Shown here: positions 16,995 to 31,488 of the stretch, piece by piece
How the letters are laid out: each line of letters opens with the position of its first letter
Position numbering within the stretch: the stretch's first letter is position 1
IMG/VR virus record: IMGVR_UViG_3300037041_000444
Span: 1 to 31,551 of that record
From: a virus
DNA: 31,551 bases
Strand: one strand, 5' to 3'
The notes under the pieces: generated by a model
Database searches by the model: none
Told to the model about the DNA's origin: nothing
What the model saw: only the letters and a program-made list of their open reading frames with translations
Made by a program: the position numbers and the translations under genes

Positions 16995-18338
16995 TTATTC
17001 AGTAGGTGCTGGGGCTGGCTCTTTATTTTTAAAATACGCTTCTACATCAAATGGTTCGCCCTTTAAATATGCTTGATAGGCTTCTTGTGTAGGGAATGTA
17101 TGAGTAGTATTTAAGACGTTATCTTTCCAAGCATCTAAATCCAATTTAACTTGGTCCAAAGCATTAGCTGCAACTTGAGGACTTGTCATAGTCTTAGTCC
17201 TTCTATCTTTACCCTCTTCAATTTCATGCAATGTAGCATCATGCAATCTAAATAACTCATCTTTAGCTGCAAGATTAGCATTTTGTATTTCTTTAGCGTT
17301 AAGGTGTTTTTTACCTATCATAGACTCATTAAACTTCTGAGTATCTTCTTGCTTTTCTTTCGCTGCATCAATTTTCATCTGAGCAACTTGAAGCGAGTTG
17401 CTTCCTCTAAGCCCAGCAGAAGCTAGTGCAGCTTTATACTTCTTATCTTCCATTTGAGAGGCTTGTAGAGCAGCTAATGCTTGGTTATGTGCCGCGGCTT
17501 CACCACCTTCTATTTCAGCAGCTTTACCCATCATAGCATCTTGACCAGCTTGTAGTGAAGCGATGCCTTTATCAGCAGCTTCTCCTGCCATCATTGCGCT
17601 GTTCTGACCTGCCTGTAGAGCGTGAGGTGTAGCTGCTCCTCTAAGTGCTGCCCCGATAACACTAGCTAAACCTTGACGTTGCTTACCCTCTTGGGCCATT
17701 TGCATCATCTGCGCCATCTCAGAGCTTAGTTTAGGTTTAGCATATAAACTTGCTAACTCTTCTATATCTCGCCCAAACTTACCGGGACTATTTGTAAAGT
17801 CTTCTTCAGCGGGCTTAGCTTCAACCGTATCGCCTTCAGCGAACGTGCTAATTCCTGCAACGCCTTTTGCTTTAGCGAGCTCAGCTTTTGCGGCATCTAT
17901 CCTAGTCTTATATTGAGCTTGGATTTCTGGTGGCAGTTTAGCCACTGCTGCTAATAGTTTTCTTAAGTGACCGGGGTTGGGTCTGCCGTGAGCCAGTGTA
18001 TAAGCAGCGCCTTCTTTAAGAATCTTTTTAATGTTTTCTGGCACATTTGGCCCGAACTGGCTGCGTATATTACTGTCTATTTTATGGTCTGGGGATTTGG
18101 CTTTCGATTTCACTTTATCGCCTTTTGCAAAGGTTGTAGGTTGCTGAGCTTGAGCTTGCTGTTGTTGTAAGACGCTCTGCATTGGCATTGGAATTTCCTT
18201 TTTATTTGTTTGGTTCTGGTATTGTTGGGCTAAGGCCGCTATCCCCTGAAACGGAGATGCTGGATTACTACCCACTTGCTGCGTCATAGGTGGGTTATCT
18301 TTTAAGATACTGTAAGCTTTCTCTAGCCCCATACTCAT
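16995..18338 (-). CDS. Probable internal virion/ejection protein, Ala/Gln/Lys-rich
   Basis: A 447-residue protein. The frame opens at a GTG at 18350, but the ATG at 18338 forms a TAATG stop-start overlap with the upstream gene and has AAGGTGG before it, so it is preferred. Residues 52-68 are Gln-rich. FAKGDKV (70-76) and FAEGDTV (about 160) are G-D versions of the A-x-G-G-x-V motif of neighbouring proteins. From about 190 to 400 it is long, Ala/Gln/Met/Lys-rich and helical, then ends in a Pro/Ala/Glu tail. With the two genes around it, composition and place fit a T7 gp14-16-like or P22-like ejection set. No domain is recognised. Confidence 0.8.
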   Translation of the reverse strand: MSMGLEKAYSILKDNPPMTQQVGSNPASPFQGIAALAQQYQNQTNKKEIPMPMQSVLQQQQAQAQQPTTFAKGDKVKSKAKSPDHKIDSNIRSQFGPNVPENIKKILKEGAAYTLAHGRPNPGHLRKLLAAVAKLPPEIQAQYKTRIDAAKAELAKAKGVAGISTFAEGDTVEAKPAEEDFTNSPGKFGRDIEELASLYAKPKLSSEMAQMMQMAQEGKQRQGLASVIGAALRGAATPHALQAGQNSAMMAGEAADKGIASLQAGQDAMMGKAAEIEGGEAAAHNQALAALQASQMEDKKYKAALASAGLRGSNSLQVAQMKIDAAKEKQEDTQKFNESMIGKKHLNAKEIQNANLAAKDELFRLHDATLHEIEEGKDRRTKTMTSPQVAANALDQVKLDLDAWKDNVLNTTHTFPTQEAYQAYLKGEPFDVEAYFKNKEPAPAPTE

Positions 18339-19807
18339 TAGCTGTTCCACCTTTTAACAACACCACCTTTCTTCATAGTGCTAGGCTTACCACCAGTAGT
18401 ATTAGATGAACCCCCACCCCATTGTTGTCCAGATACCATAGCAGCAGCAGGAGCCGCAGCAGTTGGAACGGCATTAGCCCACGCCTGTGCATTCTTCTGT
18501 TGCGTATCCCAGTATTGCTGACCGACATTTTGTAGAGCTGTAGCAGCCGTGCCCCAGTTTTGAGCTTGTTGATTGCCATAAGCATTCTGAGCTTGCCCTG
18601 CGTTAACCAAACCAGCGCCCATGCCCCCAGCCGCACTAAGAGCATTTATATTAGCAGTGTTAGCTTGCAAACCTGCTTGTTGGTTTTGCGTTTGGGCAGT
18701 AAGGTCCGCAGATTGATTTGCAAGGTTAGCTTGTTGCTGCCAGCCTGCGTTGGCTTGGTTAGCCCCTTGTTGCAACTGTTGGTGGTTCTGGAAAGCGTCT
18801 AAACCTGTGCCGTAGGCTTGGTTCATACCTTGAGCATTCATATTTTGCAAGTTAAGGTTTTGACCTTGCTGCGCTTGTTGTTCTTGAATAGCGCCACGAG
18901 CACCTCCGAAAGCTCCTTGACCTGCTTGTTGAGAGCGTAGTCCTTGCATCGTAGTATTGAACTGGCGATTAGACAAATTATTCTGAGCCTGCAACGATGT
19001 CTCCATATAAGGGTTCATATAGTTTTGTGCTTGGCTTGTAGTCCACGCATCAGGGCCTTGCATTGAAGCGCCTTGAACATCTTGCGAGCGTATTTGACCG
19101 GGGGCATAGTTTGACATACCCATTAGGCCTTTAGCTGCTCCACCGTATAGGTCACTAGCTTGCTGGTATTGACCCGGCATTTTATTTTGGTTTAATGTAT
19201 CTACGCCCTTATTAAAGTAGGGGTTAGTAGACAGACCTGATTTAGGGTCGTAGTAATTATTGTAGCCACTAAATAAAGCCTGAGCAGTTGAGTAAGGCTG
19301 TGGTGCTGTAGTTGTAATAGGTGCCCCTGTAGTTGCTGGTGCCCCCTGTGACCTATTAAGAAAATCCCCTAACGCATAGCCTTTAACTTCACCACCTTCT
19401 GCCAAGCCTTGAGCTTGTTGAGCTTGATTGGCATCTCCTGCTTGGTTTGCTGATGCAAATAAATCTTTAGACAGGGCAGAGTTATAGGGTGTAGGTGTTG
19501 ACGAAGGCGCAGGTGCGTTAGCTTGAGCCACTTGAGCGGGCGTGCTGCTTTGGTAGGGCTTTTGAGCCGTAGGTATTTGTGGAGCAGGCATAAACTGTTT
19601 ATAGTCAGCATTGCCAAAGACTTTAGCCATTGAAGCTTCATCGCCTTGTTGGGCTTTATCAAGCATAGTTTCTCTACGGGCGGCATTACTAAGTAGTGTT
19701 GAACCGGGAGCATTAGGGGACCCATACAAAAGCGCATAGAGTTTTGGGTCCAATATGTCTGTAGTTTGTTGAGTTGTGCTTGATGGTACTGGTGGTGGTC
19801 CGCCCAT
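18338..19807 (-). CDS. Gln/Asn/Ala-rich virion protein, probable DNA ejection protein
   Basis: A 489-residue protein with AAGGGGA before the ATG. Residues 55-130 are a low-complexity Pro/Ala/Thr/Gln linker. LAEGGEV lies at about 135. The core (about 225-430) has SQAQNYMNPYMETSLQAQ, QQAGQGAFGGARGAIQEQ and long runs of Gln, Asn and Ala in heptad-like spacing. I recall the NPY...GAFGGSR-type pattern from structural proteins of many uncultured podophages next to giant lysozyme proteins. It ends GGKPSTMKKGGVVKRWNS, again with the G-G-x-V motif. It probably lies inside the virion and leaves with the DNA; this is inference from composition and neighbours. Confidence 0.82.
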   Translation of the reverse strand: MGGPPPVPSSTTQQTTDILDPKLYALLYGSPNAPGSTLLSNAARRETMLDKAQQGDEASMAKVFGNADYKQFMPAPQIPTAQKPYQSSTPAQVAQANAPAPSSTPTPYNSALSKDLFASANQAGDANQAQQAQGLAEGGEVKGYALGDFLNRSQGAPATTGAPITTTAPQPYSTAQALFSGYNNYYDPKSGLSTNPYFNKGVDTLNQNKMPGQYQQASDLYGGAAKGLMGMSNYAPGQIRSQDVQGASMQGPDAWTTSQAQNYMNPYMETSLQAQNNLSNRQFNTTMQGLRSQQAGQGAFGGARGAIQEQQAQQGQNLNLQNMNAQGMNQAYGTGLDAFQNHQQLQQGANQANAGWQQQANLANQSADLTAQTQNQQAGLQANTANINALSAAGGMGAGLVNAGQAQNAYGNQQAQNWGTAATALQNVGQQYWDTQQKNAQAWANAVPTAAAPAAAMVSGQQWGGGSSNTTGGKPSTMKKGGVVKRWNS

Positions 19808-30907: not shown

Positions 30908-31488
30908 TATCTATCACGACCCTTAGTCAAACCACGTTGAGCACAACCATTAATTGCTTTAGATGACTTAACCAGCCCACCCTTAGCATAGGCTTTACCG
31001 CCGCACGCCATTTTCTTTTTAGCAACGCCGCCTTTCTTCATACCCGGTGAAGGATGTTTAGATTCCCAGTCAGCTTTCGCTGCTCTCATCTTACCCATAT
31101 CATACTTAGCACCTGTAGTCTTATTTACCATAACATCTTTAGCTACAGCAGGTTTAGCAGGTGCTGCCTTAGCCGCAGGTTTAGGAGCGTAGGCTTTTGG
31201 GTTAGCTGCAACTGCTGCTGCATTCTTCTCCCGTCTAGCTTTACCCGCTGCTATTTCTGCCGCTGAAAAGTCACCAGATGCCGCAGGCGCAGCAGGTAGC
31301 TTTGAGTCAGACCCTTTGCCCCATACACCCGGAGTGCCTTCAGATTTCTTTACAGTTTCTTTTGCTTTATAAGGAATAACCTTAGTGCCTTTTGCGCCAG
31401 TATCATCCGCTTTAAAAGTATTCTTAGTGCTTTTAGTTTCTGCTTTAGGCGCTTCTTCCTGCCCTGCTGTATTACTATATCTAGCCAT
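30907..31488 (-). CDS. Lys/Ala-rich protein with three G-G motifs
   Basis: A 193-residue basic protein. Residues 1-125 are low complexity, rich in Ala, Lys and Pro, and probably disordered (AAAVAANPKAYAPKPAAKAA). A short ordered-looking piece (VMVNKTTGAKYDMGKMRAAK) follows. The tail has MKKGGVAKKKMACGGKAY, AKGGLVKSSKAINGCAQRGL and TKGRDR. The INGC...TKGR ending resembles the end of the preceding, partly visible gene. It may be a capsid-internal or connector-associated protein that binds DNA through Lys. No domain recognised. Confidence 0.76.
   Translation of the reverse strand: MARYSNTAGQEEAPKAETKSTKNTFKADDTGAKGTKVIPYKAKETVKKSEGTPGVWGKGSDSKLPAAPAASGDFSAAEIAAGKARREKNAAAVAANPKAYAPKPAAKAAPAKPAVAKDVMVNKTTGAKYDMGKMRAAKADWESKHPSPGMKKGGVAKKKMACGGKAYAKGGLVKSSKAINGCAQRGLTKGRDR

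Follow-up and report, generated by a model that had tools for sequence, protein, structure and literature searches.

Two outstanding questions for most short-tailed phages are what selects internal proteins for packaging and what keeps these proteins on the tail while they form a channel across the cell envelope. The locus described here adds a specific one: why does a short element of the form A/K-x-G-G-x-V/I recur in late proteins that otherwise differ from each other? We analyzed the whole of a 31.5-kb virus record, referred to below as the window. All copies named in the original prediction were present: AKGGLV and KKGGVA in a 193-aa protein, SKGGVS in a 72-aa protein, ATGGYI and AHGGPI in a 365-aa protein, AKGGSI in a 348-aa protein, AEGGEV and KKGGVV in a 489-aa protein, and AKGDKV and AEGDTV in a 447-aa protein. 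We also detected an additional copy, ACGGKA, in the 193-aa protein. Defined strictly (hydrophobic-[AK]-polar-GG-x-[VIA]), the motif occurs seven times in the window's proteins compared to 0.64 times in shuffled versions, and none of 2000 per-protein shuffles (0/2000) reached seven. The form [AK]xGGx[VIA] was found 11 times in the late genes versus 2.5 times in 2000 per-protein shuffles. The bare form [AK]xGG was weakly enriched there (18 versus 10.5, P about 0.02, less than two-fold), therefore the looser signal is in part one of composition. It had been suggested that Gly/Ala richness could produce some copies by chance; we accept this for a large share of the bare [AK]xGG copies, and the shuffles reject it for the strict motif.

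The window probably comes from a short-tailed phage, and the motif carriers are probably proteins injected into the host. Two of its proteins (235 and 258 aa) belong by sequence match with the adaptors of SU10, and its 751-aa nozzle-like protein has relatives in many podoviruses. Behind the 751-aa gene, the order of products is 121, 365, 141 (cupin-like), 348, 133, 489, 447/451, and 2248 aa. The main members of this cassette are as follows.

23164 to 25419, minus strand: nozzle-like tail protein, 751 aa, landmark of the cassette (PHROG 3287, virion structural protein, E = 1.2e-63)
21686 to 22783, minus strand: 365-aa protein (open reading frame), putative ejection protein A by synteny, with a Gly/Ala-rich N-terminal part
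20218 to 21264, minus strand: 348-aa protein (open reading frame) carrying Gly/Ala/Thr-rich repeats plus a short-form hook at the C-terminus (see below)
18338 to 19807, minus strand: 489-aa Gln/Asn-rich protein, putative ejection protein B, with AEGGEV at 19385-19402 and a C-terminal KKGGVV at 18356-18373
16995 to 18350, minus strand: 447/451-aa protein, putative ejection protein C by synteny, with the degenerate copies AKGDKV at 18111-18128 and AEGDTV at 17823-17840
10239 to 16985, minus strand: 2248-aa protein, last gene of the cassette, with an N-terminal phage tail lysozyme domain (PF18013, E = 5e-29) and LPD38 (PF18857, E = 9e-13)

In SU10, gp20 to gp24 are encoded downstream of the nozzle protein gp17; they are present in the virion and missing from the genome-release intermediate, and were therefore named ejection proteins (PMC9509320). 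The window resembles SU10 in the position of its genes directly behind the nozzle gene, in its Gln-rich ejection protein candidates, and in the large gene at the end, which in the window bears a lysozyme domain. Judging from this gene order, the 365-, 348-, 489-, 447/451-, and 2248-aa proteins would be counterparts of the SU10 ejection set; synteny is also the sole basis on which the window's proteins would be placed in the virion. The 489-aa protein is related to a 324-aa protein of another locus (L124), which matches PHROG 4287, named DNA ejection protein. No DNA-level relatives of the window were found in the phage collection.

Two of the carriers share more than the motif. At the sequence level, [hydrophobic]-A-x-G-G-x-[IV] marks the N-terminal edge of a predicted C-terminal domain of roughly 70 residues in the 365- and 348-aa proteins, which we call the hook domain.

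22043 to 22060, minus strand: motif ATGGYI, residues 242-247 of the 365-aa protein, upstream of the hook domain, aligned with AHGGYI or ANGGYV in relatives
21689 to 21955, minus strand: hook domain at the C-terminus of the 365-aa protein (residues 277-365), with AHGGPI at its front edge (21923-21940)
20221 to 20358, minus strand: short-form hook of the 348-aa protein, LAKGGSI-HMDSGSFVIPADIVSALGDGSSEGG, with AKGGSI at 20338-20355 (profile and alignment)

The hook profile matched residues 277-344 of the 365-aa protein (E = 3.5e-16) and residues 308-343 of the 348-aa protein (E = 1.5e-8), where E values from pairwise profile comparison, here and below, are for single comparisons rather than database searches. 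The short form differs in that GG-x-I is joined almost directly to SGSFVIPADIVSALGDGS. Direct search with the 365-aa protein yielded no relatives, which were found beside the nozzle gene instead; in those relatives, both GG sites of the 365-aa protein and the motif site of the 348-aa protein are conserved. The domain consensus is GG-x-[IL]-GPGDGMSDDIxAxI...RLADGEFVVPxDVVxxLGxGSxxAG..L..M...R, and its placement is nearly fixed: the core GPGDGMSDDI...LADGEFVVP.DVV..LG.GS starts 56 to 60 residues before the C-terminus in 66 of the 70 relatives' proteins in which a core could be located. AlphaFold predicted two confident helices in the podovirus domain (52-58 and 63-82) and no hairpin, with low confidence for the GG segment; the model for the window's own version is of low confidence (mean pLDDT 54). 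At Pfam's curated cut-offs, there was no match to any repeat or domain model, KGG-type repeats included, in the six motif-bearing proteins and no relevant match in 64 domain members, and we found no paper containing the domain's characteristic strings in the literature searched. By these searches, the hook domain is undescribed by any Pfam model, and parts of it already lie inside known tape measure families.

Profile comparisons establish homology of the predicted domain with the C-terminal region of siphophage tape measure proteins. Scanned singly, 58 of the 64 domain members match the tape measure family phrog_3547. The hook profile also matched residues 1014-1085 of the JBD30 tape measure protein (E = 1.6e-5) and the PDB tape measure entry 8zdo (E = 1.4e-4). 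The match to lambda gpH is weak (E = 0.003): like the domain described here, gpH residues 733-785 (FATGGFTGTGGKYEPAGIVHRGEFVFTKEATSRIGVGNLYRLMRGYATGGYV) contain both GG motifs and the GEFV core, but the GPGDGMSD segment is missing. In the podovirus-type phage DSL-LC04, the corresponding domain has matches in 494 phage records; of the 60 sampled, nearly all that have an annotation are tape measure proteins. A dozen of these matches, when read, presented variants of one order, with A-x-GG in front, GPGTGTSDSI (or a linker of lesser length) in the middle, and GE-[FYH]-V behind; lambda gpH, a P2-like myophage, and actinophages were among them. This homology does not make the 365- and 348-aa proteins whole tape measure proteins, which are long, helical, and length-setting; they are Gly/Ala-rich, and the window has SU10-type adaptors and a nozzle.

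The JBD30 authors predicted a hook at residues 1022-1066 of gp46, made up of two helices and one short hairpin. They speculated that a cut at 1066 allows this hook to anchor the tape measure protein in the baseplate, with the remainder of the protein making up a channel (PMC11445458). These residues are exactly the domain found here. The two systems share homology across GG-x-I-KGPGTGTSDSIP...EF...AVV, a location near the C-terminus, and a protein expelled through the tail. In JBD30, however, the hook lies inside the protein and is followed by a cut that is a proposal (PMC11445458), whereas here the hook is a genetic C-terminal domain in a podovirus protein of roughly 300-960 aa. Removal of a further C-terminal piece would expose the hook in the JBD30 proposal; the podovirus hook already lies at the C-terminus or within tens of residues of it.

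We give about an even chance to the explanation that the motif marks a C-terminal tail-retention module of ejection proteins, common to the tape measure proteins of long-tailed phages. The domain would hold the trailing end of an injected protein in the tail lumen (the nozzle/adaptor channel), while the Gly/Ala-rich front part would exit to form a trans-envelope channel. The homology, the near-fixed C-terminal placement, the two helices predicted by AlphaFold, and the SU10-like cassette position are all consistent with this. The retention role itself is carried over from the JBD30 hook proposal (PMC11445458), in which anchoring is the authors' speculation and the hook a prediction rather than part of the solved structure. 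Several observations count against a retention module: the GG segment is modeled at low confidence and without a hairpin, no hook was detected in the 489- and 193-aa proteins (see below), neither motif nor hook domain occurs in any of SU10 gp20 to gp24, and the motif was not found in the late proteins examined in roseophage CRP-902. As the SU10 and examined CRP-902 proteins show, ejection proteins can do without the motif, which is therefore a lineage-specific device.

The original prediction had offered a cleavage site for a maturation protease as one function of the motif, in which case a protease would cut beside A-x-G-G and release a C-terminal peptide. The T5 tape measure protein, pb2, is cleaved after R1127 (PMC10038345). 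SFVPR precedes this cut and AEGGMM follows it, such that cleavage falls directly before AEGG; the similarity to the window's motif lies in this A-E-G-G-x-M element behind the cut, which is followed by GEHGTEVVTP. In lambda, gpH is converted to gpH*, a change from about 90 to 78 kDa. A cut of gpH at FATGG would yield pieces calculated at 79.5 and 12.8 kDa, which is near this change. Because of the T5 cut, proteolysis next to the motif has to be taken seriously as a rival to tail retention, even though T5 pb2 is not detected by the hook profile and is unsupported as a hook homologue. We nevertheless regard it as distinctly unlikely: T5 is the single mapped case and the profile gives no homology between its segment and the hook, the lambda FATGG cut is a candidate site, A/K-x-GG in the window is preceded by F, L, M, or Y rather than by a conserved Arg, and no protease was identified in the window.

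The remaining carriers fall into a different class. For the hook domain, the 489-aa protein (hhalign E = 0.42) and the 193-aa protein (E = 0.44) scored at the level of an unrelated control; they are therefore set apart from the domain carriers as bearers of short tags. Overall, there are two classes of carriers, with the domain in the 365- and 348-aa proteins and a conserved short tag alone in the 489-, 193-, and 72-aa proteins. The two of these that are encoded outside the cassette are listed here.

30907 to 31488, minus strand: 193-aa basic protein, with the C-terminal tail KKGGVA..MACGGKAYAKGGLV....GCAQRGLTKGRDR at 30910-31041
29156 to 29374, minus strand: 72-aa protein, with SKGGVS at 29219-29236

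Conservation at the same alignment sites, which a shared element should display, holds for both sites of the 365-aa protein, for the sites of the 348-, 193-, and 72-aa proteins, and for the C-terminal site of the 489-aa protein. The K-GG-[VI]-[TS] site of the 72-aa protein is conserved in 7 loci as SKGGVS, KKGGVT, KKGGIT, or FAKGGVT, and the tail of the 193-aa protein is conserved among small proteins of relatives that are dissimilar elsewhere in sequence, with no match in the phage collection. Conservation does not extend to the GD copies of the 447-aa protein (451 aa when started at an upstream GTG), which are not conserved at the exact site; relatives carry tandem GG motifs in that region. 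Similarly, the internal AEGGEV of the 489-aa protein shares only a general region with relatives' tandem copies. The idea of a common functional element stands insofar as composition, position, and spacing of the motif all beat controls, and it fails as one domain common to all carriers, which the profile comparison rules out given the control-level scores of the 489- and 193-aa proteins. The tail of the 193-aa protein, of the form [AK]KGGxV...RxDGCAQRGxTKGR (30910-31041, minus strand, in the window), is present in three genes of one locus (L058).

In relatives, the motif was likewise in excess over shuffled controls. Related viral contigs (about 150) yielded 971 non-redundant proteins, in which we counted 197 strict copies versus 27 expected (maximum 39), with shuffling done within 40-residue windows so that local Gly/Ala richness was retained. 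Genes downstream of the nozzle contained 43 copies versus 5.1 (maximum 13 in 200 shuffles), compared to 3 to 12 for permuted control motifs, and genes after the hook gene contained 55 versus 6.4 expected. Tandem copies in the 971 proteins were spaced by 8, 9, 11, and 12 residues 43, 32, 24, and 21 times, respectively, versus about one or two each by chance, and by 10 residues only twice. A typical tandem reads A-x-GG-I-V-x-F/Y-A-x-GG-x-V; by eye, LAEGGEVKGYALGDF in the 489-aa protein resembles one in which GD has replaced the second GG. These counts bear on the proposal that the motif is a flexible, Gly-rich interdomain junction with a purely structural role and no specific partner. Such a junction would fit the low pLDDT of the GG segment, the Gly/Ala-rich host proteins, and the barely enriched bare [AK]xGG. 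The seven-fold excess over local-composition shuffles, the near-absence of the 10-residue spacing, and the residue choice around GG (Y, M, F, or L before A; I, V, or A after) all show more specificity than would be necessary for a linker. We consider this proposal quite improbable.

Tandem spacings of 8-9 and 11-12, far from chance, would fit a transferable docking tag: with short C-terminal or linker GG tags, internal proteins that are otherwise unrelated would all bind a single partner (portal, adaptor, or scaffold) and be loaded into heads. The unrelated carriers cluster among the head/tail and ejection genes, tags lie near the C-termini of the 489-, 193-, and 72-aa proteins, and stand-alone relatives of the 489-aa protein carry the motif at 0.92-0.97 of their length. 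Since the carriers are located in an ejection-protein cassette, there is circumstantial support for the earlier suggestion of a docking signal for the interior of the capsid; the motif-free SU10 ejection proteins and examined CRP-902 proteins weigh against it. Furthermore, no partner is known, motif sites are internal in fused and C-type proteins, and the 365- and 348-aa proteins bear a whole domain rather than a tag. Overall, a docking tag as the general explanation seems unlikely to us. Under the retention explanation, the tags of the 489-, 193-, and 72-aa proteins might be reduced versions that dock at the same portal/tail site during assembly, although we are less confident of this step. 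Its broadest form, in which one C-terminal retention module sits on the injected proteins both of long-tailed phages and of a large short-tailed group that is mostly uncultured, and the GG repeat also acts as a stand-alone tag for bringing other internal proteins to the same site, is a tentative proposal that we would not expect to hold in full.

A module common by sequence to the ejection proteins of podoviruses and the tape measure proteins of siphophages provides a concrete piece to delete or graft. Among named phages, the hook is carried by the Caulobacter phages GB2A (in about the last 85 residues of gp065c), RW, RLK, and KcrB and by the Synechococcus phage MinM2. It also makes ejection proteins recognizable in metagenomes, where no Pfam model marks them; in IMG/VR, more than 500 candidate stretches encode a relative.

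We made several minor observations on the hook module and the surrounding genes. Eleven of the 64 hook domains (alignment A9, L003-L172) also match phrog_971, labelled endolysin (best E = 2.6e-5), a hint that the hook module may be fused to lysins too. The 348-aa protein (20218-21264, minus strand) contains successive repeats of the GATTGATTGATTGA type in its N-terminal part, as well as GxxxG stretches resembling glycine zippers; such features could suit a membrane-channel part. Between the two hook-bearing genes sits the 141-aa cupin-like gene (21264-21689, minus strand), which is kept in relatives and whose product matches PHROGs named short tail fiber protein or tail fiber adhesin. The 133-aa protein (19820-20221, minus strand), inside the ejection cassette, is without a family match and has homologues in 39 fetched loci; in CRP-902, a gene annotated as a GNAT acetyltransferase is located in the same cassette. 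The 2248-aa protein joins a tail lysozyme to LPD38, a large polyvalent protein domain. Lastly, a 358-aa tail protein (25722-26798, minus strand) contains His-rich tandem TDPGHxHxVT repeats, which are suggestive of metal binding by a fiber.
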